Below the pieces are notes generated by a model. That model saw only the letters and a list, made by a program, of their open reading frames with translations, was not told where the DNA came from and did no database searches. The translations under genes and the position numbers were made by a program. Positions 22,251 to 37,160 of a DNA stretch of 64,000 bases are shown here, piece after piece. Each line of letters starts with the position of its first letter. Position 1 is the stretch's first letter. The stretch is from Herbiconiux aconitum (GTDB lineage Bacteria; Actinomycetota; Actinomycetes; Actinomycetales; Microbacteriaceae), in contig NZ_JANLCM010000001.1 of assembly GCF_024979235.1 (NCBI RefSeq), forward strand, positions 620,001-684,000, in the 5' to 3' direction.

Positions 22251-22268
22251 ACTGAACGAATGGTCAGT
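22251..22268. promoter_or_regulatory. PaaR operator, site 1
   Basis: The site reads ACTGAACGAATGGTCAGT and is embedded in a longer palindrome with perfect 7-bp arms TTACTGA/TCAGTAA (22249-22270). It fits the consensus of four sites in this window (ACTGAACG NN YGGYMAGT). It lies upstream of the enoyl-CoA hydratase gene at 22292. Confidence 0.75.
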
Positions 22269-22291
22269 AAGTAGAGCGCAGTGAGGGTGCC

Positions 22292-23068
22292 ATGGCGAAC
22301 GCGGATGAGGCCGGCGTAGTGGATGGCACCGATTCAGCCCTGCGTCGGGTCGACGATCGGGCCGACCGGCTGCACGTGTGCCTCGACCGCCCCGCCACAC
22401 GCAACGCGATCGATCGCGCCCTGGTAAACGAACTGCACGCCGTGTGCGCCGAGCTCGAAGCCGGCCCGCGCATCCTCATCATCAGCGGCGTTGGCGGCGT
22501 TTTCGCTTCGGGCGCCGACATCGCCGAACTGCGCGAGCGGCGGCGAGCGGACGCTCTGGCCGGCATCAACTCCCGCCTGTTCGCACGGATCGCCGCGCTG
22601 CCGATGCCGGTCATCGCCGCGATCGACGGCTGGGCCCTCGGCGGCGGAGCAGAACTCGCCTACGCGGCCGACTTCCGCATCGCCAGCACCACCGCGAGAA
22701 TCGGCAACCCGGAGACCTCGCTCGGCATCATCGCCGCCGCGGGCGCGAGCTGGCGGCTCGCGGAGCTGGTCGGCGAACCGGTGGCCAAGGAGATCCTGCT
22801 CGCGGGCCGCGTGCTGAATGCCGAGGAAGCCCTCGCGCTGCACCTGGTCACCGAGGTGCACGAGCCGGCCGCCCTCCTCGCCGCAGCCGACGCCCTGGCC
22901 GACCGCATCGCGCGGCAAGACCCACTGGCGGTGCGCTTCACGAAGTCGGTGTTCCACGCGCCCCGCGCGGCGCATCCGGAGGTCGACGAAATCGCTCAGT
23001 CGGTGCTCTTCGAGTCGCCGGCGAAGTTCGAACGGATGACCGCGTTCCTGGAGAGGAAGAAGCGGTGA
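22292..23068 (+). CDS. paaF: enoyl-CoA hydratase/isomerase of the phenylacetate pathway (PaaF-like)
   Basis: This 258-residue crotonase-fold protein has the oxyanion-hole segments 'GVGGVFASGADIAEL' (about 70-85) and 'GWALGGGAELAYAADFRIAS' (about 112-131), and the catalytic region 'GNPETSLGIIAAAGASWRL'. In the paa pathway it would hydrate 2,3-didehydroadipyl-CoA. The symbol rests on context: a PaaR operator upstream and overlap (GTGA) with the 3-hydroxyacyl-CoA dehydrogenase gene. A PaaG-like isomerase role is possible. Confidence 0.82.
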   Translation: MANADEAGVVDGTDSALRRVDDRADRLHVCLDRPATRNAIDRALVNELHAVCAELEAGPRILIISGVGGVFASGADIAELRERRRADALAGINSRLFARIAALPMPVIAAIDGWALGGGAELAYAADFRIASTTARIGNPETSLGIIAAAGASWRLAELVGEPVAKEILLAGRVLNAEEALALHLVTEVHEPAALLAAADALADRIARQDPLAVRFTKSVFHAPRAAHPEVDEIAQSVLFESPAKFERMTAFLERKKR

Positions 23069-23949
23069 CGGCGGCGGCCACCCAGGGCCCGGGCGCGATC
23101 GGCGTGCCCGATTACGTCGGCGTGGCCGGCGGCGGGCGGATGGGGGTGGGCATCGCGCACGCCTTCCTGCTGGCGGGGGCATCGGTCACCGTTCTCGAGC
23201 GCGACGATGCTGCGGCGGCCCAGGCTCGATCCGAACTGCTGCGCGCCGCTCGAGCGAGCATCGACCGCGAGGCGACCTCTGAGAGCCTCGATGCCCTCGA
23301 GCTGCGGATGTCGTTCACCACGTCCGCCGACCCTCTTGCCGGCGCGGGACTCGTGGTCGAGGCAGTGCCCGAAGACTTGGCGCTGAAGCTGGAGGTACTC
23401 GCCCGGGTCGAGGCTGTGCTGCCCGGTGACGCGTGGCTCGCTTCGAACACCTCCTCACTCTCGATCGACGACATCGCAGCCACCCTCGATCGCCCCGAGC
23501 GCTTCTGCGGCCTGCACTTCTTCAACCCGGTTCCGGCGTCGAGCCTGGTCGAGATCGTTCGCGGGGGCCGGAGCGCCTCCGAGCTGATCGACGCCGCCCG
23601 CGGCTGGGTCGAGGCCATCGGCAAGACGCCGATCGTCGTGAAGGACTCCCCGGGGTTCGCGAGTTCGCGCCTCGGGGTGGTGATCGCACTCGAGGCGATC
23701 CGGATGCTCGAAGACGGCGTCGCGACCGCCGACGACATCGACACCGCGATGGTGCTCGGGTACAAGTTCCCGGTGGGCCCGCTGCACCTCACCGATCTGG
23801 TGGGCCTGGATGTGCGACTCGGCATCGCCGAATACCTCGAGTCGACACTCGGCGAGCGGTTCGCGGTTCCGCCATTGCTCCGCGAGAAGGTGGCCGAAGG
23901 CAAGCTCGGGCGCAAGAGCGGCGAGGGGTTCTTCACGTGGCCGGAGTGA
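23065..23949 (+). CDS. paaH: 3-hydroxyacyl-CoA dehydrogenase (3-hydroxyadipyl-CoA dehydrogenase-like)
   Basis: This 294-residue NAD-dependent enzyme starts with GTG at 23065, overlapping the upstream stop. The nucleotide loop is 'VAGGGRMGVGIAHAFL' (about 18-33). The catalytic His/Glu region is 'FCGLHFFNPVPASSLVEIV' (about 148-166), and the C-terminal 'GYKFPVGPLHLTDLVGLD' is typical of HBDH. In the operon it would oxidise 3-hydroxyadipyl-CoA to 3-oxoadipyl-CoA. The matching thiolase (PaaJ) is not in this window. Confidence 0.87.
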   Translation: MTAAATQGPGAIGVPDYVGVAGGGRMGVGIAHAFLLAGASVTVLERDDAAAAQARSELLRAARASIDREATSESLDALELRMSFTTSADPLAGAGLVVEAVPEDLALKLEVLARVEAVLPGDAWLASNTSSLSIDDIAATLDRPERFCGLHFFNPVPASSLVEIVRGGRSASELIDAARGWVEAIGKTPIVVKDSPGFASSRLGVVIALEAIRMLEDGVATADDIDTAMVLGYKFPVGPLHLTDLVGLDVRLGIAEYLESTLGERFAVPPLLREKVAEGKLGRKSGEGFFTWPE

Positions 23950-24008
23950 TCGACGCCCATGTCGCGAGCAGTCGGTTCGCTGCGACCGTGGCGACCGCCC
24001 CGCTCGTC

Positions 24009-24419
24009 TCAGCGCTTGTCGATGATCAGATTCGTGATGCGCACCGTGCAGAGCCGGTTTCCGTCGTCATCGGTCAGCACCACGTCGTGCGAGGTCGTGG
24101 TGCGGCCGAGATGAAGAGCCGTCGCCGTGCCGGTCACCAATCCCGAGCGTGCGCCTCGGTGATGGGTGCCGCTGACGTCGAGCCCGACCGCCGTCTTACC
24201 GAGGGTCGAGGCGTGGATCACTGCCGCCCAGGAGCCGAGCGCTTCGCCGAAGGCCATCGACGCGCCGCCGTGCAGCAGCCCGAACGACTGGGTGTTCCCT
24301 TCGACCGGCATCGTGGCCACCACCCGCTCGGCCGACTGCTCGAGAACCACGACTCCCATCTTGCGGTCGAGCTCGCCGAGTTCGATCGTCCACGGCTGAA
24401 GGCTGTCGGTGCCGGTCAT
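24009..24419 (-). CDS. paaI: hydroxyphenylacetyl-CoA thioesterase PaaI
   Basis: This 136-residue hotdog thioesterase has the PaaI active-site segment 'GLLHGGASMAFGEALGSWAA' (about 47-66) and 'GKTAVGLDVSGTHHRGARSG'. The family frees CoA trapped in dead-end phenylacetyl-CoA derivatives. It is transcribed divergently from paaZ, with a PaaR operator in the 71-bp gap. It is one of two paaI-like genes in the window; the other is at 37163. Confidence 0.92.
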   Translation of the reverse strand: MTGTDSLQPWTIELGELDRKMGVVVLEQSAERVVATMPVEGNTQSFGLLHGGASMAFGEALGSWAAVIHASTLGKTAVGLDVSGTHHRGARSGLVTGTATALHLGRTTTSHDVVLTDDDGNRLCTVRITNLIIDKR

Positions 24420-24454
24420 CCTGCATCCTCGTCTCTCGGAGTGCCCACCATGCT

Positions 24455-24472
24455 ACTGAACGTTCGGCAAGT
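24455..24472. promoter_or_regulatory. PaaR operator, site 2 (paaI/paaZ divergent gap)
   Basis: ACTGAACGTTCGGCAAGT matches the shared site in all fixed positions. Its location between the starts of paaI (24419) and paaZ (24491) would let one dimer pair control both directions. Confidence 0.75.
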
Positions 24473-24490
24473 CTTCGGAAAGGCCACCTG

Positions 24491-26836
24491 ATGTCCACGA
24501 TCTCCCCCGCTTCGCGCACCACCCCGACTCCCACCGCTGATGCGCTGACCACCGCCGGCGTCCGCATCCTGCAGAGCTATCTGGAAGGCGAGTGGCAGGA
24601 GCCGGCGAAGGGGTCGGCAGAACCGGTCCCGACGTTCGACGCTTCCACCGGCGAACCGGTCGCGCTCGTCGGCAGCGACGGACTCGACCTCGCTGCGGCC
24701 GTCGACTACGCCCGCACCGTCGGCCAGGCGTCGCTCGGGCACCTCACCTTCCACCAGCGGGCGCTCATCCTGAAGGCCCTCGCGCAGCACCTGAATTCCG
24801 ACGAGGTCAAGTCCGGTCTCTACGAGGTCAGCGCCCGCACCGGCGCCACCCGACGCGACAGTCTGGTCGACGTCGACGGCGGTATCGGCGTGCTCTTCAC
24901 CTATTCGTCGAAGGGCCGGCGGGAGTTGCCCAACGCCTTCGCGATCGTCGACGGCGCGCCCGAGAACCTGGCTCGCGACGGGTCGTTCGGCGGGCAGCAC
25001 CTCTACGCGCGCATCCCGGGCGTCGCCTTCCAGGTGAACGCTTACAACTTTCCGGTGTGGGGGATGCTCGAGAAGTTCGCACCCGCCTTCCTCGCGGGAG
25101 TGCCGAGCATCGTGAAGCCTGCGACACCCACCGCCTTCCTCACCGAAGCGGCGGTGCGCGCCATCGTCGACTCCGGCCTTCTGCCCGAGGGCTCGCTGCA
25201 ACTCGTGAGCGGATCGGTGCACGGCTTCCTCGACCTGTTAGACGTGCGCGATGTGGTCGGATTCACCGGATCGGCGTCGACCGCCGCGATCTTCTCCGGT
25301 CACGCGAACGTGCTCTCCGGCGGTGTCGGCCTCACCTGCGAGACCGACTCGCTGAACGCCGCGATCCTCGGCCCGGATGCGGTCGCCGGCACCCCGGAAT
25401 TCGACGCCTTCGTCGCCTCGGTGGTCACCGAGATGACGGCCAAGGCGGGTCAGAAGTGCACGAGCATCCGTCGCGTCATCGTGCCTGTCTCGGTGATGGA
25501 CGCGGTGATCGACGCCGTCGGCGCCCGCATCGACGCACGCGTGACGCTCGGCGACCCTCGCGCCGAGGGGGTCACGATGGGCCCGCTGGCGAGCACGGAG
25601 CAGAAGGCGGAGGTGCGCCGCAGCGTCGAGGCGCTGCTGGCCGGTGGGGGAAGGATCGCCTACGGCTCGCTCGACGAACCCCGCGTCACACGCGCCGATG
25701 GCACGGTCTCTGCAGCGCCCTCGGGCGCGTTCCTCTCGCCCGTGTTGCTTCGATTCGACGATGCGGATGCGGACGCGGTGCACGAAGTCGAGGCATTCGG
25801 GCCGGTCGCCTCAGTCGTGGGCTACCGAGACCTCGCCGACGCCGTGCGTTTGGCCAATCGCGGCGGCGGCTCCCTCGTGGCCACGGTGGCGAGCGCGGAT
25901 GCGTCGACCGTCGCCACCCTCGTGACGGGCATCGCGCCGTTCCACGGAAGGGTGCTCGTGCTCGACCGCGACGACGCCCGCTCGAGCACCGGCCACGGCT
26001 CCCCCGTGCCGCATCTCGTGCACGGCGGCCCCGGTCGCGCAGGCGGCGGCGAGGAGCTCGGCGGCATCCGCGCGGTGAAGCACTACATGCGCCGCACAGC
26101 TCTGCAGGGGTCGCCGGCCGTGCTGACAGCCTTGACCGGCCAGTGGCGCGCGGGTGCGGGCGTGCAGGCGGATCTGTCGGGCGCTGGGGCGTCGTGGTCC
26201 AGCCCGTCCACCGCGTCCAGCCCGTCTACCGCGTCCAGCCTGTCCACCGCGTCCACCGCGTCCACCGCGTCCACCGCGTCCACCGCGTCCACCGCGTCCA
26301 CCGCGTCCACCGCGTCCACCGCGTCCACCGCGTCCACCGCGTCCACCGGTAGCGTCGACCCCGCCGGGGCCACTGGCGCCTCTGGCGCCGAGCATCCGTT
26401 CCGCAAGCCGCTCTCGCGGTTGCGCCTCGGTGACGCGATCGACTCGGAGGCCCGCGAGATCTCGCTCGACGACATCGGGCATTTCGCGGAATTCACCGGC
26501 GACACGTTCTACGCCCACACCGACGAGGAGGCGGCGGCCGCGAATCCGTTCTTCCCCGGCCGCGTCGCGCACGGCTACCTGCTCATCTCGTGGGCGGCGG
26601 GCCTGTTCGTCGACCCAGCGCCGGGCCCCGTGCTCGCGAACTACGGTCTCGAGAACCTGCGATTCCTGACGCCGGTCTCCCCGGGCGACGCGATCCGCGT
26701 CACCCTCACCGCGAAGGAGATCACGCCGCGCGAGAAAGAGGACTACGGCGAGGTGCGTTGGGACGCAGTGCTGCACAACCAGCGCGACGAGGTCGTGGCC
26801 ACCTACGACGTGCTCACGCTCGTTTCCAAGGAGTAG
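24491..26836 (+). CDS. paaZ: PaaZ: oxepin-CoA hydrolase / aldehyde dehydrogenase fusion with repeat linker
   Basis: This 781-residue bifunctional ring-cleavage enzyme opens oxepin-CoA and oxidises the resulting semialdehyde. The aldehyde dehydrogenase domain spans about 25-550, with catalytic Cys near 323 ('AGQKCTSIRRVIV') and Glu near 284 ('LTCETDSLNA'). The C-terminal MaoC/hotdog hydratase (about 640-781) has the Asp/His active-site segment 'DTFYAHTDEEAAA...GRVAHGYL'. Between them, residues about 569-620 are a Ser-Thr-Ala repeat encoded by a 9-bp minisatellite, absent from typical PaaZ. A ribosome site AAAGG precedes the ATG. Confidence 0.95.
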   Translation: MSTISPASRTTPTPTADALTTAGVRILQSYLEGEWQEPAKGSAEPVPTFDASTGEPVALVGSDGLDLAAAVDYARTVGQASLGHLTFHQRALILKALAQHLNSDEVKSGLYEVSARTGATRRDSLVDVDGGIGVLFTYSSKGRRELPNAFAIVDGAPENLARDGSFGGQHLYARIPGVAFQVNAYNFPVWGMLEKFAPAFLAGVPSIVKPATPTAFLTEAAVRAIVDSGLLPEGSLQLVSGSVHGFLDLLDVRDVVGFTGSASTAAIFSGHANVLSGGVGLTCETDSLNAAILGPDAVAGTPEFDAFVASVVTEMTAKAGQKCTSIRRVIVPVSVMDAVIDAVGARIDARVTLGDPRAEGVTMGPLASTEQKAEVRRSVEALLAGGGRIAYGSLDEPRVTRADGTVSAAPSGAFLSPVLLRFDDADADAVHEVEAFGPVASVVGYRDLADAVRLANRGGGSLVATVASADASTVATLVTGIAPFHGRVLVLDRDDARSSTGHGSPVPHLVHGGPGRAGGGEELGGIRAVKHYMRRTALQGSPAVLTALTGQWRAGAGVQADLSGAGASWSSPSTASSPSTASSLSTASTASTASTASTASTASTASTASTASTASTASTGSVDPAGATGASGAEHPFRKPLSRLRLGDAIDSEAREISLDDIGHFAEFTGDTFYAHTDEEAAAANPFFPGRVAHGYLLISWAAGLFVDPAPGPVLANYGLENLRFLTPVSPGDAIRVTLTAKEITPREKEDYGEVRWDAVLHNQRDEVVATYDVLTLVSKE
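26197..26349 (+). repeat. 9-bp minisatellite in the paaZ interdomain linker
   Basis: Eleven perfect copies of GTCCACCGC occupy 26242-26340, with a twelfth degenerate copy to 26349. Three preceding 18-bp units alternate GTCCAGCCN with GTCYACCGC (26197-26250; the last overlaps the first perfect copy). The array is in frame and encodes Ser-Thr-Ala units, so slippage would alter only linker length. Confidence 0.95.
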
Positions 26837-26855
26837 CCCACCCGTCGTCGGTGCC

Positions 26856-26927: not shown

Positions 26928-26941
26928 GATGATGCGGCAGC

Positions 26942-27580
26942 TCAGGCCGAGGGGCGCGGGTGCAGGCCCTCGAAGGCCACCGTGATGACGTCGTCGGCCA
27001 GCTGGTCGGGCGCGAGCGGGCCACCCGGCTTGTACCACTCCACGATCGAGTTGATCATGCCGAAGATCAGCCTCGTCGTGGTGCGGGCGTCGACATCGGC
27101 CCGCAGTGTGCCCTCGGCGTGCGATTCCTCGACCAGTGCGGCCACCGCGTGGTCGAAGTCGCGACGGCGCGCGAGAGCCTCGCGCTCGAGTTCGGTGTTG
27201 CCGCGCAGGCGGAGCAGCAGCGTCACCGAGGGAAGCTCCTCGCACAGCACCCGAACGGCGCCGCGCAGCACGAACTCGAGTCGCGCATCCGCCGATCCCT
27301 CCTGCGCGCCGGGCAGCGTGAGCACGCCCTCCAGCTCGCCGAGGCCGCGCTCGAGGGCGAGGCGCAGCAGGTCTTCTTTGCTGCTGACGTGGTAGTAGAT
27401 GGCCGATTTGCTCGTGCCGAGACGTTCGGCGAGCGTGCCCATCGACGTCGCGTCGTAGCCGAACTCGTTGAATGCCGCGACCGCGATGTCGAGCACCGTC
27501 GCGAGGTCATAGGGAGCGCGCCCCGACCGCCCGTTGCCACCGCGCGGCGCGGGCGGATCGGTGTGTCGTGGCTGGCTCAT
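26942..27580 (-). CDS. paaR: TetR-family regulator of the phenylacetate genes (PaaR-like)
   Basis: This 212-residue TetR protein has its helix-turn-helix at about residues 25-70 ('AAFNEFGYDATSMGTLAERLGTSKSAIYYHVSSKEDLL') and a helical ligand domain behind it. It is divergent from paaA with a PaaR-type operator in the gap, so it probably represses itself and the paa operon. In related bacteria the inducer of TetR-type PaaR is phenylacetyl-CoA; that is inferred here. The C-terminal segment 'IFGMINSIVEWYKPGGPLAPDQLADDV' is common in TetR regulators of acyl-CoA catabolism. Confidence 0.88.
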   Translation of the reverse strand: MSQPRHTDPPAPRGGNGRSGRAPYDLATVLDIAVAAFNEFGYDATSMGTLAERLGTSKSAIYYHVSSKEDLLRLALERGLGELEGVLTLPGAQEGSADARLEFVLRGAVRVLCEELPSVTLLLRLRGNTELEREALARRRDFDHAVAALVEESHAEGTLRADVDARTTTRLIFGMINSIVEWYKPGGPLAPDQLADDVITVAFEGLHPRPSA

Positions 27581-27608
27581 GGCTCCCGACTTTAGCCGAC
27601 CGCACCGC

Positions 27609-27637
27609 TTGTTCCCCGCATCGAACGGTGTTATCGT
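27609..27637 (+). promoter_or_regulatory. promoter of the paaABCDE operon
   Basis: TTGTTC (27609-27614) and TATCGT (27632-27637) are 17 bp apart, directly followed by the PaaR site. GAGGAGG at 27681-27687 is a strong ribosome site for paaA. Confidence 0.45.
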
Positions 27638-27639
27638 TT

Positions 27640-27657
27640 ACTGAACGATCGGTAAGT
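27640..27657. promoter_or_regulatory. PaaR operator, site 3 (paaR/paaA divergent gap)
   Basis: ACTGAACGATCGGTAAGT is the most symmetric of the four sites, lying in the palindrome TTACTGAACGATCGGTAA (27638-27655). It overlaps the predicted start of the paaA transcript and can also control paaR. Confidence 0.8.
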
Positions 27658-27691: not shown

Positions 27692-28744
27692 ATGGTCACC
27701 CCCGACGACGACCCTGACGGCTCTGGTCTGCGACGTTTCGAAGAACTGCTCGCCAGCGAGAGCCGGGTGGAGCCGACCGATTGGATGCCGGCGGCTTACC
27801 GCAAGACGCTCATCCGTCAGATCTCGCAGCACGCCCACTCCGAGATCATCGGCATGCAGCCCGAGGGCAACTGGATCACGCGCGCCCCGAGCCTCAAGCG
27901 CAAGGCCATCCTGATGGCGAAGGTGCAAGACGAGGCCGGCCACGGGCTCTACCTCTACTCCGCTGCCCAGACGCTCGGCATCGACCGAGAAGAGATGTTC
28001 GACCAGCTCATCACCGGCCGTGCGAAGTACTCCTCCATCTTCAACTACACCACTCCCACTTGGGCCGACATGGGCTCGATCGGCTGGCTCGTCGACGGTG
28101 CCGCCATCTGCAACCAGGTGCCGTTGTGCCGCGCCTCCTACGGCCCCTACGGCCGGGCGATGGTGCGCATCTGCAAGGAGGAGTCGTTCCATCAGCGGCA
28201 GGGATTCGAGATCCTGCTCGCCCTCATGAACGGCACCGAGGAGCAGCGCGCGATGGCCCAGGAGTCGGTGAACCGGTGGTACGCACCGGCGCTGATGATG
28301 TTCGGCCCGCCGGATGAAGACTCCCCCAACTCGAAGCAGAGCATGGCCTGGAACATCAAGCGCTTCTCGAACGACGAGTTGCGTCAGCGCTTCGTCGACA
28401 TGCTCGTGCCGCAGGCCGAGATCCTCGGAATCACGCTGCCCGACCCGGCCATCCGCTGGAACGACGAGCGCGGCCACTACGACTTCGGCGAGCTCGACTG
28501 GAACGAGTTCTACGAGGTGCTGGCCGGCCGCGGTCCCGCGAACACCGTCCGGGTATCGCGCCGCCGCACCGCCCACGAGAACGGCGCCTGGGTGCGCGAG
28601 GCGGCGCGGGCCTACGCCGACAAGCAAGCGGGCGCATCGGGCGCATCCGGTGCATCCGGTGGCGCCATCGCCGACGCCGCCGTCGCCACCGCCACCCCCG
28701 CAGGCGCCGCCACTGGCGCCGCCGCCGAGAGGATCGCGTCATGA
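27692..28744 (+). CDS. paaA: 1,2-phenylacetyl-CoA epoxidase, catalytic subunit A
   Basis: This 350-residue di-iron ferritin-like subunit performs O2-dependent ring epoxidation of phenylacetyl-CoA. Metal-ligand helices are visible in '[15 protein letters not shown]' (ExxH, about 72-86) and '[15 protein letters not shown]' (ExxxH, about 157-171). The family-specific '[24 protein letters not shown]' is present. The last 40 residues are an Ala/Gly/Ser-rich extension ([10 protein letters not shown] and following) beyond the usual PaaA end. The stop overlaps the paaB start (ATGA). Confidence 0.97.
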
Positions 28745-29049
28745 CCAGTCCCGGAGACTCCGGCACCCGCGAGACGTGGCCTCTCTGGGAGGTCTTCCTG
28801 CGCTCGTCGCGGGGACTGTCGCACGTACACGCCGGGTCACTGCATGCTCCCGACTCCACGATGGCGGTGCGCAACGCTCGCGATCTCTACACCCGCCGGG
28901 GCGAAGGGGTCTCCATCTGGGTGGTGCCCGCCTCGGCCATCACGGCGTCCGATCCGGATGCGAAGGGCGAGTTCTTCGAGTCGCCACAGGGCAAGGAATA
29001 CCGCCACGCGACCTACTACACCGCGTCAGAGACGGTGCCGCACCTGTGA
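28741..29049 (+). CDS. paaB: 1,2-phenylacetyl-CoA epoxidase, subunit B
   Basis: This small 102-residue subunit of the epoxidase complex is full length for the family. The core '[48 protein letters not shown]' is diagnostic. PaaB bridges the catalytic A/C heterodimers in known complexes. It is coupled at both ends: ATGA with paaA and GTGA with paaC. Confidence 0.96.
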
Positions 29050-29879
29050 TTCCGAAGAGCAGCCGAGCCGTCTCCACGGCCCTCACCCCTGAGGCGATCG
29101 CCGCGTCGATCGCCTCGGCGGAGACGGCCGCCTCCGAGCCCGTCGCGCGCTACGCACTGGGCCTCGGCGACGACGCGCTCGTGCTCGCGCATCGACTCGG
29201 CGAGTGGATCGCGAATGCCCCTGAACTCGAAGAAGACGTGGCTCTGGGCAACATCGGTCTCGACCTGCTCGGCCACGCCCGCAGCTTCCTCACTTACGCC
29301 GGCTCGGCGTGGGGCAGGAGCGAAGACGATCTCGCCTACTTCCGCGGCGAATCCGACTACCGCAACCGGCAGTTGTTCGAGCAGCCGAGCGGCGACTTCG
29401 CCCACACCATCGCGCGGCAACTCTTCGCCTCGGCCTACTTCGATGCGCTCTACCGCGCGCTGCAACGCTCGACCGATCCGACGCTGGCGGCCATCGCCGC
29501 GAAGGCCACCAAAGAGGTCGACTACCACCTCGATCACAGCGTGCAGTGGCTGCTGCGACTGGGTCTCGGCACCGCAGAGTCGCATCGGCGGATGCAGCGG
29601 GGCGTGGACGCGATGTGGCCGTTCGTGGGCGAGCTCTTCAGCCCCGAACCCGAAGCGGATGCCGGGGGCGCACTCGAGGGTGTCGCCGTCGACCCCGAGA
29701 GTTTGCGCGCGGCCTTTGACGAACTCGTGCCGAGGTTGATCACCGACGCCGGACTGGCCGTGCCGACGATTCCGTTCGCTTGGGGTGGTGGCCGCGAGGG
29801 CCGACACACCGAGGCTCTCGGCCCGATGCTGGCCGAGATGCAGGTGCTGGCCCGCGCGCATCCGGGGGTGACGTGGTGA
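29046..29879 (+). CDS. paaC: 1,2-phenylacetyl-CoA epoxidase, structural subunit C
   Basis: This 277-residue ferritin-like partner of PaaA starts with GTG at 29046, overlapping the paaB stop. Family segments include 'ALGLGDDALVLAHRLGEWI' (about 38-56), 'LGNIGLDLLGHARSF' and 'ATKEVDYHLDHSVQWLLRLGLGT'. PaaC is structurally similar to PaaA but normally has no working di-iron site. The stop overlaps the paaD GTG start. Confidence 0.96.
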   Translation: MIPKSSRAVSTALTPEAIAASIASAETAASEPVARYALGLGDDALVLAHRLGEWIANAPELEEDVALGNIGLDLLGHARSFLTYAGSAWGRSEDDLAYFRGESDYRNRQLFEQPSGDFAHTIARQLFASAYFDALYRALQRSTDPTLAAIAAKATKEVDYHLDHSVQWLLRLGLGTAESHRRMQRGVDAMWPFVGELFSPEPEADAGGALEGVAVDPESLRAAFDELVPRLITDAGLAVPTIPFAWGGGREGRHTEALGPMLAEMQVLARAHPGVTW

Positions 29880-30565
29880 TCATGGCCGCGGCGATGGACC
29901 ATGCGGCCCCGGGCCGTGACCACGACGCCGAGGTCGACGCCCGCAAAACCCGGAACGCCCTCGTCACCCGAGACGCTCGCGAGACCCGCGACGCCCCGGA
30001 GAGCCGCGACACTCTTGACGCCCAGAACGACCGCGACACTCTCGACGCCCTCGAGCTCGAGGCACGTCCGCGGCCGCAGAGCGGCGCCGAGCGGGCCATC
30101 TGGGAGTTGGCGGCCACGGTGGTCGACCCCGAGGTGCCGGTGCTCACCATCGAAGATCTCGGCGTGTTGCGCGGGGTCACCTTCGCCACCGCCTCCGGGT
30201 CGGTCACGGTCGAGATCACCCCCACCTATTCCGGCTGCCCCGCCGTCGACGCCATGCGCGACGACATCGTGGGCGTGCTGCACGGCAACGGATACGACGA
30301 CGTGTCGGTGAAGGTGGTGCTCTCCCCCGCCTGGACCACGGACTGGCTGAGCGACGAGGGCCGCACGAAGCTCGAGCAGTACGGCATCGCGGCCCCCGGC
30401 CCCCGCCGCAGCGACGGCACTGTGAGTCTCGGGCTCGGCATCCGTTGCCCCCGCTGCGGGTCGATGCACACCCGCCAGCTCTCCCGCTTCGGTTCCACCT
30501 CGTGCAAGGCACTCTACGTCTGCCAGCGCTGCCAGGAGCCGTTCGACTACTTCAAAGAGCACTGA
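29876..30565 (+). CDS. paaD: phenylacetate degradation protein PaaD (DUF59/MIP18-like, zinc ribbon)
   Basis: This 229-residue protein is believed to help assemble the Fe-S or metal centres of the epoxidase system. The MIP18-like domain (about 70-160) includes 'VVDPEVPVLTIEDLGVLRGV' and 'PTYSGCPAVDAM'. The C-terminal four-Cys ribbon is 'CPRCGSMHTR...CQRCQEPFDYF'. An N-terminal extension of about 60 residues, rich in repeated R-D-T/A motifs, is unusual. I chose GTG at 29876 for the GTGA overlap; ATG 29882 is the alternative. The final 18 bases are tandemly duplicated. Confidence 0.93.
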   Translation: MIMAAAMDHAAPGRDHDAEVDARKTRNALVTRDARETRDAPESRDTLDAQNDRDTLDALELEARPRPQSGAERAIWELAATVVDPEVPVLTIEDLGVLRGVTFATASGSVTVEITPTYSGCPAVDAMRDDIVGVLHGNGYDDVSVKVVLSPAWTTDWLSDEGRTKLEQYGIAAPGPRRSDGTVSLGLGIRCPRCGSMHTRQLSRFGSTSCKALYVCQRCQEPFDYFKEH

Positions 30566-30602: not shown

Positions 30603-31733
30603 ATGTCCCTCACCGAGACGCCGCCCGGCACTGCCCCGGCCGCGCGCCGCCGTGCCGCGTTCCACACCCTCACCGTGTCGGAAGTGCGCCCCCTCACCGA
30701 CGACGCGATCGAGGTGTCGTTCGAGGTGCCGCCCGCCCTCGCCGACGCCTACGACTACGCTGCCGGGCAGTACATCGCCATCCGCACGAGCCTCGAGGGC
30801 GAAGACGTGCGCCGCAGCTACTCGATCTGCCAGGCACCGAGCCGCGGATCGCTGAAGGTCGGCATCAAGCGCGACCTCGGAGGGCTCTTCTCCAGCTGGG
30901 CCGTCGAGAACCTCGTCGCCGGGATGGAGCTCGAGGTGATGAGTCCGGAGGGGCGCTTCACCGCTCAGGCACCTCTCGATTCGCCCGGGCATTTCGTGGG
31001 CGTGGCGGCGGGTTCGGGCATCACGCCGATGATGTCGCTGATCGAGCACACGCTGCGCGAGAATCCCGCCGCTGTGTTCGAACTCGTGTACACGAACCGC
31101 ACGGCGCTGGACACGATGTTCGTCGACGAGCTCGCCGACCTCAAAGACCGCTACACCGCGCGTCTCGCGCTGCACCACGTGCTGACGCGGGAGAAGCGGA
31201 GTTCCGAGCTGCTGTCGGGGCGGCTCGACGCCGAGCGCGTGAGGGCCATCTTCACGACGTTGCTGCAGCCGGCGACGATCGACGAGTGGTTTCTCTGCGG
31301 GCCGTTCGACCTGGTGCAACTCTGCCGCGACGAGCTCGCAGCGCTCGGCGTGCCGGCCGACGACGTCCGTTTCGAGCTGTTCACCACCGGGGCGCCCGAA
31401 CGCCCGGCGGGGCAGGCCGGTCGGCCGGTCGCCACGGATGCCGGCGACGCTGTTCACACCATCCAGTTCCGTCTCGACGGCACCACCGCTACGGTGACGA
31501 GTCCCGAGCACTCCCAGGAGAGCATCCTCAACGCCGCCTTGCGGGTGCGCCGCGACGTGCCGTTCGCCTGCGCCGGCGGGGTCTGCGGAACCTGCCGCGC
31601 GAAGCTCGTCGAAGGGGAGGTCGACATGGTCGAGAACTATGCCCTGGAGCCCGACGAACTCGCACGCGGCTACGTGCTCACCTGCCAGTCCATCCCCACT
31701 TCTGCTGAAGTCAGCGTCGACTACGACGCGTAG
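30603..31733 (+). CDS. paaE: 1,2-phenylacetyl-CoA epoxidase, reductase subunit E
   Basis: This 376-residue reductase passes electrons from NADPH to the epoxidase. The FAD-binding motif 'RRSYSICQAP' is near residue 72. The NAD(P) site is 'GVAAGSGITPMMSLIEHT' (about 133-150). The C-terminal plant-type 2Fe-2S domain has 'CAGGVCGTCRAKL' (about 322-334) and a fourth Cys in 'GYVLTCQ'. All four cluster cysteines are present. AAGGA precedes the ATG. Confidence 0.96.
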   Translation: MSLTETPPGTAPAARRRAAFHTLTVSEVRPLTDDAIEVSFEVPPALADAYDYAAGQYIAIRTSLEGEDVRRSYSICQAPSRGSLKVGIKRDLGGLFSSWAVENLVAGMELEVMSPEGRFTAQAPLDSPGHFVGVAAGSGITPMMSLIEHTLRENPAAVFELVYTNRTALDTMFVDELADLKDRYTARLALHHVLTREKRSSELLSGRLDAERVRAIFTTLLQPATIDEWFLCGPFDLVQLCRDELAALGVPADDVRFELFTTGAPERPAGQAGRPVATDAGDAVHTIQFRLDGTTATVTSPEHSQESILNAALRVRRDVPFACAGGVCGTCRAKLVEGEVDMVENYALEPDELARGYVLTCQSIPTSAEVSVDYDA

Positions 31734-31756
31734 AGGTTCGAACCCCGAGGAGCGTC

Positions 31757-32536
31757 ATGACAGTCGAACTGACCATTGCCGACGGCATCGCCGAGGTCGT
31801 GCTGAACGCCCCGCAGAAGCTCAACGCCGTCGACGAGACCGCACTGGCCGAGCTCGCGGCAGCCTATGCCGAGGCCGAGGCGGCCGGCGTACGGGTGCTC
31901 CTCCTCCGCGGCGAAGGCCGGGCGTTCTCGGCCGGGCGCGACATCTCGCACGTCGACCCGGCGACGGATGATGCTCGCGGCTACCTCGCCGACGTCGTCA
32001 CACCGGTGCTCCGCCGGATGGCGGCCTTCCCCGCACCCACCTTCGCGATGGCCACGGGCGCCTGCCTCGGCGTGGGACTCGGTTTCCTCATCGCGACCGA
32101 TGTCGTCTACGTGGCCGACACCGCGAAGATCGGCTCTCCGTTCGCGAACCTCGGAGCCACCCTCGACTCCGGCGGCCACGCGCTGTTCTTCGAGCGGCTC
32201 GGCGCCCACCGCACGCTCGATCTCATCTACACGGGAGAGCTGATGTCGGGGGCCGAGGCCGTCGCATCCGGTCTGTTCAGTCGCGTGCTTCCCGCCGGCG
32301 AACTCGACGCCTTCACCCGCGAGCGCGTGACCCGAGTGGCCGAAGGTCCGACGGGCGCGTTCCTCGCGAGCAAGGAGCTCGTGCGGCGCCTGCGCGACGA
32401 GCGGATCGGACTCTGGACCTCGCTCGACGACGAGAACGAGGCTCAGGGCACGCTCTGCCTGAGCGACGACTACCGCGAGGGCTTCGCCGCGTTCCAAGAG
32501 AAGCGCAGCCCCGTCTTCGGCACCGCACGGGCCTGA
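31757..32536 (+). CDS. paaG: enoyl-CoA hydratase/isomerase (PaaG-like)
   Basis: This 259-residue crotonase-fold protein closes the paaA-E operon, with the site GAGGAG before its ATG. It has 'GEGRAFSAGRDISHVDP' (about 56-72) and 'ATGACLGVGLGFLIATDVVYVADTAKIGSPFANLGATLDSGG'. Position suggests the ring-1,2-epoxyphenylacetyl-CoA isomerase role of PaaG, forming oxepin-CoA. Assignment between PaaF and PaaG for the two crotonases in this cluster is by context only. Confidence 0.8.
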   Translation: MTVELTIADGIAEVVLNAPQKLNAVDETALAELAAAYAEAEAAGVRVLLLRGEGRAFSAGRDISHVDPATDDARGYLADVVTPVLRRMAAFPAPTFAMATGACLGVGLGFLIATDVVYVADTAKIGSPFANLGATLDSGGHALFFERLGAHRTLDLIYTGELMSGAEAVASGLFSRVLPAGELDAFTRERVTRVAEGPTGAFLASKELVRRLRDERIGLWTSLDDENEAQGTLCLSDDYREGFAAFQEKRSPVFGTARA

Positions 32537-32552
32537 GCGCTCCCGCCGCACC

Positions 32553-32607
32553 GAATCGCCACAACACGCCGCAACGAGCGCACCCGTAGCGGCGTGTTTG
32601 GCGACTC
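32553..32607. terminator. long hairpin between convergent paaG-like gene and E2 gene
   Basis: The left arm GAATCGCCACAACACGCCGC (32553-32572) pairs with GCGGCGTGTTTGGCGACTC (32589-32607), with one bulge and one mismatch, around a 16-nt loop. It is 16 bases after one stop and 14 bases from the other, so it likely stops transcription both ways. Its ends match the in-gene palindrome at 18627-18682. Confidence 0.75.
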
Positions 32608-32621
32608 GAGAGGCGCCGCCG

Positions 32622-34265
32622 TCAGAGGTTGCCGAGCAGCAGCAGGGGCTCCTCGACGCAGCGGGCCACGTAGGTGAGAAAGCCGGATGCGACGTCGCCG
32701 TCACACACGCGGTGATCGAAAACGAGGGTGAGCTCCACCACTTTGCGCACCACGATCTCGCCGTCGACCACCCAGGGGCGGTCGATCACGCGGCCGACTC
32801 CGAGCATCGCGACCTCGGGGTGGTTGATGATGGCGGCCGATCCGTCGACACCGAAGCCGCCGTAGTTGTTGAGCGTGAAGGTGCCACCCGAGAGCGCACT
32901 GGGCGGGAAGTCGCCCTTCTCGGCCCGGGTGACGAGCGCCGTGATCTCGTCGCGCAGAGTGCGCGTGGTGAGGTCGTGCGCACCGTGCACCACGGGCACC
33001 ATCAGTCCGCGCGGAGTCTGCGCCGCGAGACCGAGGTTGATCGAGCCGTGCTGCACGATCTCGTTCGTCTCGTCATCGACCGAGGAGTTCAGGATCGGGT
33101 ACTGCCGGAGACCCGCGACCACGAACCGCGCGATCAGAGCCGTGAGACTGAAGCGCTCCCCCGTCGATTTCTGCAGGCGCTCCTTCGCGGCGAACAGCTC
33201 GGTGGCGTCGACATCGAGCCAGATCGTGGCCTCGGGGATGAGGCGGCGCGACTGCGCGAGGCGAGCGGCGACCACCTTCCGCAGCCCGGTGATCGGGATG
33301 CGCACATCCCCCACCCCGATGCCACCAGAGGCCACGCCTCCCGCACCCGCTCCTCCCAAATCCACTCCTCCCGAATCCATTCGTCCCGAATCGGGGTAAA
33401 ACGGGCTGGATGGCACGATTTGGGACGAGTCGGCTCGCGCGTCGGCCGCGCGCGCGGCGATCGCGGCCTCGACGTCGTGGCGGAGGACGAGAGAGCCCGC
33501 GCCGCTGCCGAGCAGGGCGCCGGCGTCGAAACCGTGGTCGCGGGCGCGCTTGCGCACGATCGGCGAGACCACCGGCGAGCGGCGGGAAGGGTCGAGCAGG
33601 GCGTCGCCTGGCCTCGCGGGTTCAGCCGGTGCGGGTGCGGCCGCGCCGCTCAGGGCGGCAGCGCTCCCGCTCGCGGCCGGCGCGGGTGAGGGCGCGCCGC
33701 GGCCGAAGCGTCCACCGGCGGGCCGCTGCAAGCGCAGCGTGGACTCCTTCGTGCCGTAGCCCACGAGAACCGCACCCGATCCGGCGACCGTAGCCGGCGC
33801 ATCCGGAACTCGCACCGCGGTGCCGGGAACGACATCGGTGCCCCCGGCTGCCGCTGCGTCATCCGCCGCCGAGGCCGGGGGCCGGGAATCCGTTGCCGAG
33901 GCGGGAGATGCGGCATCCGTCGGCGAAGCGGGAGACGCGGCATCCGCCGCAGAGACCGGCGATGCGACCGCACCCGCGGGCACCGCCGCTGCCGGCGCCA
34001 CCCCCGCCACCGGCGCCACCGGCGCATCGACCGGCACCACCGTGATGAGCGGCGACCCCTTCGTCACCACGTCGCCCGGCGCACCGTGCAGCCGCTCGAC
34101 GCGCCCGCCGTAGGGCGACGGCAGCTCCACGATCGACTTGGCCGACTCCACTTCCACCACGAGCTGATCGATGGCGATCACGTCACCCGGAGCCACCAGC
34201 CACGACACGATCTCGGCCTCGGTGAGGCCCTCGCCGAGATCCGGCAGCAGGAATTCGCTGGCCAT
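32622..34265 (-). CDS. 2-oxoacid dehydrogenase E2 (dihydrolipoamide acyltransferase)
   Basis: This 547-residue E2 subunit has an N-terminal lipoyl domain with the lipoyl-Lys in 'VEVESAKSIVELPS' (about 42). A long Ala/Pro/Ser-rich hinge follows, then a peripheral-subunit-binding domain 'VSPIVRKRARDHGFDAGALLGSG' (about 235-257). A second Gly/Ser linker leads to the catalytic domain, ending in the active-site 'DHRVCDGDVASGF'. It probably serves branched-chain 2-oxoacids (BkdC type), although a pyruvate complex is possible. The second linker contains an odd palindrome and 15-bp repeats (33340-33427). I chose the ATG at 34265. Confidence 0.92.
   Translation of the reverse strand: MASEFLLPDLGEGLTEAEIVSWLVAPGDVIAIDQLVVEVESAKSIVELPSPYGGRVERLHGAPGDVVTKGSPLITVVPVDAPVAPVAGVAPAAAVPAGAVASPVSAADAASPASPTDAASPASATDSRPPASAADDAAAAGGTDVVPGTAVRVPDAPATVAGSGAVLVGYGTKESTLRLQRPAGGRFGRGAPSPAPAASGSAAALSGAAAPAPAEPARPGDALLDPSRRSPVVSPIVRKRARDHGFDAGALLGSGAGSLVLRHDVEAAIAARAADARADSSQIVPSSPFYPDSGRMDSGGVDLGGAGAGGVASGGIGVGDVRIPITGLRKVVAARLAQSRRLIPEATIWLDVDATELFAAKERLQKSTGERFSLTALIARFVVAGLRQYPILNSSVDDETNEIVQHGSINLGLAAQTPRGLMVPVVHGAHDLTTRTLRDEITALVTRAEKGDFPPSALSGGTFTLNNYGGFGVDGSAAIINHPEVAMLGVGRVIDRPWVVDGEIVVRKVVELTLVFDHRVCDGDVASGFLTYVARCVEEPLLLLGNL
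33382..33427. repeat. palindrome in the E2 linker coding region, beside 15-bp degenerate repeats
   Basis: CGTCCCGAATC (33382-33392) and GATTTGGGACG (33417-33427) pair with one mismatch. Immediately to the left (about 33345-33390), three 15-bp units ending in CCTCCCAAAT, CCTCCCGAAT and CGTCCCGAAT encode D-S-G-G-like linker residues. The frame stays open throughout. Confidence 0.6.
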
Positions 34266-34269
34266 CCGG

Positions 34270-35343
34270 TCACCACTCCCAGGTGTCGAGAGCGGCGAGC
34301 ACGCGCTCGGCGGTCGGCAGGTGATGTTCCTCGAGCTGGGGAGAGGGGAACGGTACATCGAATCCCGCGATGCGGAGGATGGGCGCCTGGAGGTGGAAGA
34401 ACTGCCGCTCCGTCACCCGCGCGGCGACTTCGGCACCGTAGCCGCCGAACTGGGCGGCCTCGTGGATGACGGCGGCGCGACCGGTCTTGCGCACCGAAGC
34501 GCCCACTGTCTCGTCGTCGAAGGGTGACAGGCTCCGCAGGTCGACGACCTCGACCGAGAGCCCCTCGGCCTCGCCGAGGGTCGCCGCTTCGAGGGCTGTC
34601 TTGACCGTCGGACCATAGGCGATCAGCGTCACGTCGGTGCCTTCGCGCAGCACCTGCGCCCGCGTCATCGGCGCCGTGCGCACGGGCAGGGCGACCGCGT
34701 CCTTCGACCAATACCGGCTCTTCGGCTCGAGGAAGATCACCGGGTCGTCGCTCGCGATCGCCTCGCGGAGCATCGAGTAGGCATCCGCCGGGTTCGACGG
34801 GGTGACGACGGTGAGGCCGGGGGTGTGCGTCCAGTACGCCTCCGAGGAATCGGAGTGGTGCTCGACCCCGCCGATGCCACCGGCGTAGGGGATGCGGATG
34901 ACCACGGGCAGCGAGACACGACCCCGCGTGCGGTTGCGCATCTTCGCGAGATGGGAGGTGATCTGCTCGAAAGCGGGGTAGCTGAAGGCGTCGAACTGCA
35001 TCTCGATGACGGGCCGCAGGCCGTACATCGCCATGCCGATCGCGGTGCCGACGATGCCGGATTCGGCGAGCGGGGAATCCCAGACGCGCGATTCACCGAA
35101 GGTCGCGTGCAGCGCATCCGTCACCCGGAAGACACCGCCGAGCGGGCCGACGTCTTCGCCGAACACGACCACCGACGGGTCGTCGGCCAGGGCGTCGCGC
35201 AGGGCGGCGTTGAGTGCGCCGGCGATGCTGAGCGGGGCGGGCGCGGCGGGCGTCCCGGGTGAGGCGACCGCCGACGGCGAAGGCGTGAGCGCGCTGCCGG
35301 TGGCAGCGCTGGTGCCGAGTGCGTTGTCGTCGAGGATCGTCAT
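34270..35343 (-). CDS. 2-oxoacid dehydrogenase E1 beta subunit
   Basis: This 357-residue E1beta has the transketolase-type core 'VVVFGEDVGPLGGVFRVTDAL' and 'DSPLAESGIVGTAIGMAMYGLRPVIEMQF', and 'VIRIPYAGGIGGVEHHSDSSEAYWTHTPGL' with the conserved His. The N-terminal 35 residues (Ala/Pro/Ser-rich) exceed the usual length. The start ATG overlaps the E1alpha stop, and the E2 gene begins 4 bases after its stop, so the three form one operon. Confidence 0.94.
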   Translation of the reverse strand: MTILDDNALGTSAATGSALTPSPSAVASPGTPAAPAPLSIAGALNAALRDALADDPSVVVFGEDVGPLGGVFRVTDALHATFGESRVWDSPLAESGIVGTAIGMAMYGLRPVIEMQFDAFSYPAFEQITSHLAKMRNRTRGRVSLPVVIRIPYAGGIGGVEHHSDSSEAYWTHTPGLTVVTPSNPADAYSMLREAIASDDPVIFLEPKSRYWSKDAVALPVRTAPMTRAQVLREGTDVTLIAYGPTVKTALEAATLGEAEGLSVEVVDLRSLSPFDDETVGASVRKTGRAAVIHEAAQFGGYGAEVAARVTERQFFHLQAPILRIAGFDVPFPSPQLEEHHLPTAERVLAALDTWEW

Positions 35344-36515
35344 GAGGTGCTCCCGGGTTCGGCGGAGACGGATGCGGTCGAGACGGATCCGCTCGAAACG
35401 GATGCGGTCGAAACGGTGGCGGCCAGCTCCCGCTCCAAGAACGCCCGCTGCTCACGCAGCGCGGGCCGCTCGGCGGCGTACACGTGGTCGAAGAGTTCGA
35501 GCGGATCGAGCACGGGGTTCGTGTTCATCGCATCCCGCGTGGCCCCGGCGAGCTCCTCCGCGGCATCTGCGATCTCCTGACGCAGTTCGTCGCCGAGAGC
35601 TCCGGATGCGCGCAAGTAGGTCTCGAGACGCGCCACCGGATCGAGGGTCTTCCAGTGCGCCACCTCGTCTTTCGACCGGTAGCGCGTCGGGTCGTCGGAG
35701 TTCGTGTGCGACTCGATGCGGTAGGTGAGGCCTTCGATCAGTGTCGGTCCGCCTCCGGATCGCGCGTTCTGCACGGCCGCCGACGTGACGGCGTGCATCG
35801 CGGCCACGTCGTTGCCGTCGACGAAGTAGCCGGGCATGCCGTAGCCGATCGCGCGGTCTGCCAGGGTGCGGGCGTGCGACTGCTTCGCGAACGGCACGCT
35901 GATGGCGTAACCGTTGTTCTGCACCACGAACACCACGGGTGCCTGCCACACCGAGGCGAAGTTGAAGGCCTCGTGCGCGTCGCCCTCGCTGGTCGCTCCG
36001 TCGCCGAGCAGGGTGAGCGCCACCACGTCATCGCCCTTCAGCTTTGCGGCCGTGGCCAGCCCGACCGCGTGCAGGGCCTGGGTGGCCAGCGGGGTGGCCT
36101 GCGGGGAGATCCGGTGCTCGTAGGGGTCGAATCCCATGTGCCAGTCACCGCGGAACGACGACAGGATCTGCTCCGGCGGCACCCCGCGCGTCAGCAGCGC
36201 GATGCTGTCGCGGTAGGTCGGGAACAGCCAATCCTGCTCACCGAGAGACCGCACAGCTCCGATCTCGCACGCCTCCTGCCCGAACGCGGAGGGGTAGGTG
36301 GCGAGCCGGCCCTGCCGGGTGAGAGCGGTGACCTGAACATCGAAACGGCGGGCCAGCACCATGCCGCGATAGAGATCGAGCAGCATCTCGGGCTCGGGAA
36401 GCACGAAGCCGGCACGCTCCGCGCCCTCCACCGGCACGCCCTTCTCGTCGATCAGGCGGATCGGCTTCTGAGTGGGGCGCACGGGTTCGGCGCGAGCGGC
36501 GACGTCGTCGTTCAT
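35340..36515 (-). CDS. 2-oxoacid dehydrogenase E1 alpha subunit (TPP-binding)
   Basis: This 391-residue E1alpha binds thiamine diphosphate through 'LLGDGATSEGDAHEAFNFASVWQAPVVFVVQNN' (GDG...NN motif, about 175-205). 'PTYRDSIALLTRGV' and 'YRIESHTNSDDPTRYR', carrying phosphorylation-loop-like residues, are present. The last 20 residues are Ser/Thr/Val/Ala-rich and come from 15-bp repeats. I chose the ATG at 36515; ATG 36599 is in frame but family similarity begins after 36515. An Lrp-type gene precedes it on the same strand. Confidence 0.92.
   Translation of the reverse strand: MNDDVAARAEPVRPTQKPIRLIDEKGVPVEGAERAGFVLPEPEMLLDLYRGMVLARRFDVQVTALTRQGRLATYPSAFGQEACEIGAVRSLGEQDWLFPTYRDSIALLTRGVPPEQILSSFRGDWHMGFDPYEHRISPQATPLATQALHAVGLATAAKLKGDDVVALTLLGDGATSEGDAHEAFNFASVWQAPVVFVVQNNGYAISVPFAKQSHARTLADRAIGYGMPGYFVDGNDVAAMHAVTSAAVQNARSGGGPTLIEGLTYRIESHTNSDDPTRYRSKDEVAHWKTLDPVARLETYLRASGALGDELRQEIADAAEELAGATRDAMNTNPVLDPLELFDHVYAAERPALREQRAFLERELAATVSTASVSSGSVSTASVSAEPGSTS
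35366..35410. repeat. three 15-bp tandem units at the 3' end of the E1 alpha gene
   Basis: The units AGACGGATGCGGTCG, AGACGGATCCGCTCG and AAACGGATGCGGTCG are adjacent and in frame. They encode the Val-Ser/Ser-Thr-Ala-Ser tail of the E1 alpha protein and add nothing recognisable to the enzyme. Confidence 0.8.
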
Positions 36516-36564
36516 GATGTCATCGTGCAGCAGCGCCACGAGCGATGCGAGAGCCACGGAGAAG

Positions 36565-36576
36565 GTCTGTACAGAC
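36565..36576. promoter_or_regulatory. perfect 12-bp palindrome upstream of the E1 alpha gene
   Basis: GTCTGTACAGAC is self-complementary and lies 49 bases upstream of the E1alpha start and 46 bases after the end of the Lrp gene. It could be an operator for the adjacent Lrp/AsnC regulator. That link is an inference from position. Confidence 0.45.
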
Positions 36577-36622
36577 GGTCGGAACGGCCCGAAATCCATG
36601 CCATTCGTCTTGCCGGAAGGGC

Positions 36623-37090
36623 TCAGATGGGCCAAACGTCCATCATGACGCCGGGCGCGGTTCCCGGATGTTCGTCGAGCACCACGTGCGAGCGCGTGGA
36701 CACGACGCCCGGCAGCGCGTGGATCTGCCGCATGATGGCCTCGCTCAGCCGCTCGTGATCCGGAGCACTGACCGTCAGAACGAAGTCGATGTCGCCGCTC
36801 ACGGCCTGCACGTTCTCGACGTAGGGCAGTGCGGCGAGCGCCGTCGCGAGATCCGACCACACCACGTCGCCCACCTTCACGATCACGATGGCGGTCACGT
36901 GCAGGCCCAAGGCTTTGCGGTCGACGGTCGCGGCGAAGCCCGAGAGCACACCCTCCGAGATCAGCCGCTGCACCCGGTTGTGCGCCGCCGTGCGCGAGAT
37001 GTGAACGCGGCCGGCGAGTTCGCGGATCGACAGACGGGAGTCCTGGGTCAGCTCCGAGATGATGGCGCGATCGACGCGGTCGACGTTCAT
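36623..37090 (-). CDS. Lrp/AsnC-family regulator
   Basis: This 155-residue protein has an N-terminal AsnC-type winged helix 'VDRAIISELTQDSRLSIRELAGRVHISRTAAHNRVQRLISEGVL' (about 5-48) and a C-terminal RAM ligand domain (about 65-145). Its position just ahead of the 2-oxoacid dehydrogenase operon, in the same direction, matches BkdR-type control, where branched-chain amino acids are effectors. The ligand cannot be read from sequence. Confidence 0.92.
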   Translation of the reverse strand: MNVDRVDRAIISELTQDSRLSIRELAGRVHISRTAAHNRVQRLISEGVLSGFAATVDRKALGLHVTAIVIVKVGDVVWSDLATALAALPYVENVQAVSGDIDFVLTVSAPDHERLSEAIMRQIHALPGVVSTRSHVVLDEHPGTAPGVMMDVWPI

Positions 37091-37127
37091 CGCATCAGGC
37101 TACCGTCGGGGCCTGGCGAATGGTCGC

Positions 37128-37156
37128 TTGCCGTGCCGGGGTACTTACCGTACGTT
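37128..37156 (+). promoter_or_regulatory. promoter of the second paaI-like gene (leaderless)
   Basis: TTGCCG (37128-37133) and TACGTT (37151-37156) are 17 bp apart, predicting a transcript that starts at the ATG at 37163. The -10 box lies inside the PaaR site. Confidence 0.45.
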
Positions 37157-37160
37157 CAGT
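37143..37160. promoter_or_regulatory. PaaR operator, site 4
   Basis: On the minus strand this reads ACTGAACGTACGGTAAGT, the same consensus as the three sites in the paa cluster. It ends 2 bases before the ATG of the thioesterase gene at 37163 and overlaps its predicted -10 box. Confidence 0.75.

Follow-up and report, generated by a model that had tools for sequence, protein, structure and literature searches.

The paa genes of Corynebacterium glutamicum are reportedly controlled by PaaR, a TetR repressor with a 22-base-pair (bp) operator, which is said to have been described by Chen and co-workers in 2012; the motif of this operator serves here for comparison. PaaR of Thermus thermophilus (TTHA0973) recognizes the consensus CNAACGNNCGTTNG and is released by phenylacetyl-coenzyme A (phenylacetyl-CoA) (PMC6651687, PMC9493321), and PaaR of Burkholderia cenocepacia acts at a dual, overlapping inverted repeat resembling the QacR operator, several operators standing before separate paa operons, as they do in the locus described here (PMC2770484, PMC9493321). 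A 2026 survey names PaaR as the dominant paa regulator in Actinomycetes (PMC13186573). This report concerns a paa locus of the actinomycete Herbiconiux aconitum (Microbacteriaceae), lying in a stretch of 64,000 nucleotides (contig NZ_JANLCM010000001.1, positions 620,001 to 684,000), hereafter the window, whose own numbering is used throughout. Four sites in this window are very probably operators of a TetR repressor, PaaR, encoded at 26942-27580; judged by sequence comparison, the fourth would serve a displaced paaI gene, and the island would include a companion 2-oxoacid dehydrogenase operon.

The 18-bp element that the first-pass annotation placed at 22251, 24455 and 27640 on the plus strand and at 37143 on the minus strand is indeed found at each of these positions with 0 mismatches. 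Putative operator 1 (22251-22268, plus strand; one 22-bp frame spans 22251-22272 on the minus strand) precedes the paaF-like/paaH pair, 23 bp before the paaF-like ATG, while the other three are flanked by divergent gene pairs. Operator 2 (24455-24472, plus) lies between a thioesterase gene resembling EntH and MenI (minus strand) and paaZ (plus strand), 18 bp from the paaZ start; operator 3 (27640-27657, plus; 22-bp frame 27636-27657) lies between paaR (minus) and paaA (plus), 34 bp 5' of paaA and 59 bp 5' of paaR; and operator 4 (37143-37160, minus) lies between lrp (minus) and paaI (plus), 52 bp 5' of the lrp start codon and 2 bp 5' of where paaI begins. Operator 4 begins 4.6 kb past the last paa gene of the cluster, the distance at which it had been placed outside it. 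Each site is a near-palindrome, symmetric at 10-14 of its 18 positions, with the half-site ACTKAMCG, so that the strand given to it is conventional; the minus-strand label of operator 4 describes a true match, but the gene that follows the site, paaI, is on the plus strand.

Matches to the 18-mer with at most three mismatches occupy seven rows in the window, every one at the four sites, whereas shuffled sequence (n = 100) averaged 2.15 and never exceeded 6. In the whole genome (4,160,394 bases) the palindromised pattern, allowing two mismatches, is found at 14 places (25 rows): three of the sites match exactly, 24455 has one mismatch and is tied with another locus (L005), and nine places have two. 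From base composition, 0.018 exact matches and 0.83 with one mismatch would be expected. Where the pattern itself gave 13 and 12 rows, its reversed control gave 8 and 5. A matrix made from the four sites breaks the tie, with 25.2 bits for 24455 and 21.4 for L005. The genome-wide matrix search that the first-pass annotation had proposed thus puts all four sites in the lead, but this ranking is circular because pattern and matrix were both built from the sites themselves.

Independent evidence is provided by a motif derived de novo from 28 relatives, with the 250 bp that precede paaI in each as input and the window excluded. The scores of this 22-bp motif, ATATACTAACTGAACGnTCGGT, are 16.6-39.3 bits in 27 of these relatives; in the remaining one, G126, it fails. 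Applied to the window, its top eight of 127,958 placements all fall at the four sites, whose best scores are 17.6, 15.1, 15.0 and 14.9 bits, compared with 10.2 for the best placement elsewhere. A second matrix, made from relatives' sites picked by likeness, has the four sites within its first ten placements (29.0 to 12.2 bits, the next being 6.9), and is only partly independent since those sites were chosen for resembling the window's. Operator 2 is the lowest of the four in this matrix and in one further matrix, and the highest in the de novo one. We rejected L005 as a member of the regulon: no paa gene adjoins it and it reaches 6.2 bits with the de novo matrix; by eye, it lies in or just 5' of a metallophosphoesterase-like frame. 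The de novo motif opens with ATATACT, as if a -10 box and an operator were fused, and this opening is mostly lost from the window's sites.

The element was surveyed among the PaaR-bearing members (34) of a family sample of 150 genomes, 29 of which yielded a paaI locus at an expectation value (E) of 1e-15, the remaining five having no match. In 28 of these 29 genomes, that of Herbiconiux aconitum among them, the highest-scoring 18-mer at the locus is found 2-208 bp upstream of paaI and has 15.9-28.5 bits; shuffled PaaR loci (n = 600) have a median of 7.2 bits and a 95th percentile of 12.7. The element recurs 5' of paa genes in the family and also in Arthrobacter, and in G114, G063 and G129, as in the window, paaI is apart from paaA and nevertheless has an operator 5' of it. 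In the relatives it is at least 22 bp long, with the consensus ACTNACTGAACGNNCGGTNAGT; it may be viewed as a pair of 18-bp dyads that overlap with an offset of 4 bp. The frame of this consensus was chosen by us and its sites were picked by likeness to the window's, a bias which is removed by the de novo motif, itself shifted 4 bp leftward relative to this frame. Hence the 18-bp motif first noticed is real, but it is a truncated view, corresponding to one of the two dyads; at three of the window's sites one 18-bp dyad is strong and the outer arm is eroded. Two PaaR dimers may bind the element.

The presumed regulator (26942-27580, minus strand) combines a TetR helix-turn-helix domain (PF00440, 50.3 bits) with a TetR C-terminal domain (PF17932, 84.0 bits), and its best solved chain is 2iai (SCO3833). 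Its gene is divergent from the adjoining paaA, PaaR and PaaA are present in the same 34 of the 150 family genomes, and PaaR-type operators precede the paa units. The nearest named PaaR loci are those of the Microbacteriaceae Rhodoglobus, Microterricola and Salinibacterium, and Lys58, Ala60, Tyr62 and His64 are invariant in 16 aligned PaaR proteins, in what would be the recognition-helix region. Several observations weigh against a PaaR regulon of this shape. The regulator passes no NCBIfam cut-off, the nearest model being of the ScbR type (52 bits, with 150 required). In G126, the exception among the relatives, the best site precedes paaA and not paaI, and one of the 600 shuffles reached 19.0 bits, above the lowest of the relatives' sites (15.9). 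Furthermore, many relatives have a divergent paaA or paaJ on the other side of the operator that precedes paaI, so in these cases paaI is not demonstrated as the operator's target. Nevertheless, a PaaR regulon with four operators appears well supported, and the original proposal of a single regulon, with its TetR gene beside the sites, is borne out by a motif made without the window that ranks these sites best in it and by the element's position 5' of paaI in 28 of 29 genomes. Two congeners in the sample (G011, G093) have neither PaaR nor PaaA at the thresholds used, and the paa island is therefore patchy within the genus. A record titled Vibrio cholerae strain 35D (L135) carries a paa cluster with an Arthrobacter-like PaaR and looks like contamination or a wrong label.

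The gene behind operator 4 (37163-37573, plus strand) had been taken for a second paaI-like gene, a description that has to be reversed: it is this gene that passes the PaaI equivalog cut-off (TIGR02286, 134.3 bits, cut-off 118.9), and the thioesterase inside the cluster does not. The latter (24009-24419, minus strand), of the 4HBT family, is nearest to the EntH and MenI models and passes neither cut-off, its best match being EntH with 86.9 bits; TIGR02286 is not among the four families that it matches at E 0.001. Accordingly, the idea that the fourth site draws a thioesterase into the regulon holds in that a thioesterase gene is the fourth target, but, given the PaaI match, no outside gene has been recruited; a core paa gene was displaced and its operator retained. 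In 20 paa regions compared, paaI mostly adjoins paaA or paaR, followed in several by paaK; its divergent neighbour in G114 and G063 is paaJ. Judged from these matches and neighbourhoods, paaI is a core paa member, here displaced and with an operator of its own. An ortholog of the thiolase PaaJ was not found in the organism's own genome, where the best thiolase, on another contig, is 52% identical to a relative's paaJ; paaJ is present at 67-80% identity in six of nine genomes searched, and other thiolases may act in its place.

Between the paaG-like gene and paaI lies an operon read on the minus strand, comprising the lrp gene for an Lrp/AsnC-type regulator (36623-37090), upstream of the dehydrogenase genes, and the genes for the 2-oxoacid dehydrogenase components E1 alpha (35340-36515, start inferred), E1 beta (34270-35343) and E2 (32622-34265, start inferred). 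Although some E1 alpha copy is found at E 1e-40 in 144 of the 150 family genomes, the window's copy belongs to a paa-linked group whose members are 51-72% identical to it, other family copies being 40-47% identical; the limit of this clade was set at the gap between E 6e-113 and 1.6e-87. In a tree, 30 paa-linked rows stand apart from nine other copies with 100/100 support. The clade occurs in 24 of the 34 family genomes with paaA and in none of the 116 without it, as raw counts that ignore kinship. In a sample of the order (n = 347), which overlaps the family sample, it occurs in 69 genomes, 68 of them with PaaA, that is, in 68 of 99 genomes with paaA and 1 of 248 without, kinship again being ignored; since five candidates were scored per genome, absences may be overcounted. 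The two genes are often neighbours: among 67 pairs of paaA and E1 alpha (our own excluded), 16 are split between contigs and 51 share one, the distance being no more than 20 kb in 21 pairs and no more than 80 kb in 44. The dehydrogenase operon had been treated as ground lying outside the paa cluster, a view which this co-occurrence overturns; by its distribution in the sampled genomes, it is a companion of that cluster.

A possible role for this companion concerns entry into the pathway. The ligase PaaK was not found in the genome (99.97% complete) with TIGR02155 and PF14535 at E 0.001 or with a PaaK protein at E 1e-5, a search that covers PaaK models and proteins and leaves other aryl-CoA ligases possible. 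Among the 34 paaA-bearing family genomes, 19 have PaaK (at least 63% identical to the query), and in 15 this usual opening ligase was not found, three of the 15 having distant matches of 25-34% identity; two of the 15 are incomplete assemblies (G009, 86%; G114, 90%). The dehydrogenase is present in 13 of the 15 genomes lacking PaaK and 11 of the 19 having it (one-sided p 0.07), and lies within 20 kb of paaR in 12 of 13 and 5 of 11, respectively (p 0.018); these counts were made by eye from coordinates, with G125, whose genes are on different contigs, scored as not near. Because the pathway takes in phenylacetyl-CoA, the ester whose 2-oxoacid precursor is phenylpyruvate, we propose the complex as a feeder of the pathway. 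In many Actinomycetales the paa-linked Lrp/2-oxoacid dehydrogenase would oxidize phenylpyruvate, derived from phenylalanine, to phenylacetyl-CoA, so that PaaK would be dispensable and lost, the present genome being an instance; PaaR would sense the product, and the displaced paaI operator may here tie the complex to PaaR. This proposal is a tentative one, which we hold to be rather more doubtful than probable. A chemical precedent is given by PglB/PglC of Streptomyces pristinaespiralis, an E1 alpha/beta pair described as converting phenylpyruvate to phenylacetyl-CoA in pristinamycin biosynthesis (PMC7089894, PMC10685826); that pair is biosynthetic, belongs to an antibiotic cluster, and is likened to the window's E1 pair by description only. 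Several facts speak against the proposal: PaaK is retained in 11 of the 24 family genomes that carry the complex, two genomes without PaaK (G106, G126) have no such complex, and E1 alpha passes the model for pyruvate dehydrogenase E1 alpha (TIGR03181, 414.7 bits against a cut-off of 411.35), a narrow pass of about 3 bits under a model name that says nothing on substrate.

That same pass is counted in favour of the complex being an ordinary pyruvate or branched-chain one with no part in the pathway. The solved chains listed for E1 are likewise pyruvate, branched-chain and unspecified 2-oxoacid proteins, and a neighbouring gene for an Lrp-type regulator is a typical feature of bkd operons. Against this reading, the E1 alpha clade is separate from the nine other copies, occurs almost only with paaA in both samples, and lies within 20 kb of it in nearly a third of the pairs, as counts that leave kinship aside; we regard this explanation as distinctly questionable. 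At the position aligned to Thermus Phe66, a residue which we take to line the E1 alpha substrate pocket, 29 paa-linked rows have Val or Thr and the nine others Leu, a weak hint of an altered pocket. In one relative a HisC-type aminotransferase gene (L206:258-1400, minus strand; 349.8 bits, cut-off 374) follows the dehydrogenase genes, and would fit a route from phenylalanine; none was seen in that place in the other relatives' loci inspected by eye. Just outside the paa cluster of a relative without PaaK, a thiamine-diphosphate decarboxylase-like gene was noted by eye (L100:3905-5632). Neither a paa-linked 2-oxoacid dehydrogenase nor a paa pathway without PaaK is described for Actinobacteria in the titles and abstract openings that searches of open-licence articles in PubMed Central (PMC) listed. 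The 2026 survey looks at the 20 genes to either side of paaK, and considers PaaA and PaaC, too, as markers (PMC13186573). If the dehydrogenase does make phenylacetyl-CoA, the missing entry step becomes directly testable.

Operator 4 could also control the lrp-dehydrogenase operon, which is divergent from paaI, either alone or in addition to that gene, in which case PaaR would govern the supply of a CoA ester derived from a 2-oxoacid. The site lies 52 bp 5' of lrp, which makes an effect on these genes possible in the window, the dehydrogenase is paa-linked, and G025 and G102 each have an operator some 0.65-0.7 kb upstream of E1 alpha, although oppositely oriented paa genes are closer to it. Within 500 bp upstream of the dehydrogenase unit, however, none of 23 relatives has an operator (maximum 10.8 bits, compared with 28.5 in the window), so the window is alone among 24 family genomes; general PaaR control of the dehydrogenase was therefore rejected as unsupported and is probably not the rule, and we consider that operator 4 is unlikely to govern these genes. 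A sigma-70-type scan of 36980-37230 returned no promoter on either strand, a result that carries no weight either way. It is highly improbable that the four sites belong to some other TetR or Lrp regulator and are merely near paa genes, since all four are 5' of paa genes, one of them between paaR and paaA, and the element is met again 5' of paa genes in the family and in Arthrobacter, even if comparable CTGACCGATCGGTCAG sites adjoin another TetR-like gene of the genome (L007, by eye). Those tandem sites (L007, L008) were rejected as PaaR sites on account of that gene. They form two CTGACCGATCGGTCAG-like palindromes (G000:C1:536459-536495) by the TetR-like gene and a transporter frame, as seen by eye, and a similar pair occurs in G114 and G075.

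Returning to PaaR as the regulator of the four sites, a mechanism may be outlined from characterized PaaR proteins. Without substrate, PaaR would bind the sites 2-34 bp 5' of start codons and block the paaFH, paaZ, paaA-G, paaR and paaI units, and phenylacetyl-CoA would release it. In relatives, ATATACT resembles a -10 box read toward paaA, and a repressor bound to a motif with such a start would thus cover both promoter and start. The functional island would extend from about 22.25 to 37.57 kb, with operator 4 marking its right edge.

The remaining genes of the island are all on the plus strand. The PaaABCDE epoxidase and PaaZ are all above their cut-offs: paaA (27692-28744, TIGR02156), paaB (28741-29049, TIGR02157), paaC (29046-29879, TIGR02158; GTG start inferred, the PaaC query being short at its start), paaD (29780-30565, TIGR02159; an open frame with the true start inside), paaE (30603-31733, TIGR02160) and paaZ (24491-26836, TIGR02278, 966.2 bits). 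Other assignments are looser. The paaF-like enoyl-CoA hydratase gene (22292-23068, PF00378) passes no NCBIfam cut-off among the best 25 matches listed, the paaH-like 3-hydroxyacyl-CoA dehydrogenase gene (23065-23949) is below the PaaH cut-off, its presumed GTG start overlapping the previous stop, and the paaG-like crotonase gene (31757-32536) reaches 127.2 bits where the PaaG cut-off demands 345.15. Between the two domains of paaZ, a 9-bp tandem array of 16.9 copies of GTCCACCGC (26197-26348) encodes a repetitive Ser-Thr-Ala interdomain linker; the array preserves the frame, and its length could differ between strains.

As a regulon this one belongs to a known kind, and what distinguishes the locus lies next to it, in a paa island widened by a linked 2-oxoacid dehydrogenase and in a genome where PaaK was not found: the fourth operator leads to an island wider than its paa genes, with a companion dehydrogenase tied to the pathway across the order. 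PaaR of Burkholderia cenocepacia differs in having a 15-bp sequence of its own and in coming from another phylum, and that of Thermus thermophilus in having a 14-bp site without ACT arms and PaaI and a phenylacetyl-CoA ligase in one operon; the Thermus site CNAACGNNCGTTNG and the window's sites share the half AACGNN, and the window has YGGY where Thermus has CGTT. In comparison with Corynebacterium glutamicum, the outer arm is eroded at three of the sites here, paaI stands apart, and no ortholog of paaK or paaJ was found. The likeness to the Corynebacterium motif that was noted at the outset is confirmed, the four sites agreeing with it at 13, 11, 13 and 13 of its 16 fixed positions. Twenty-nine loci match that motif at 11-15 of 16, random 34-mers (n = 2000) mostly reaching 7 and nine of them at least 11, and the relatives' consensus ACTNACTGAACGNNCGGTNAGT agrees with it at 15 of 16.

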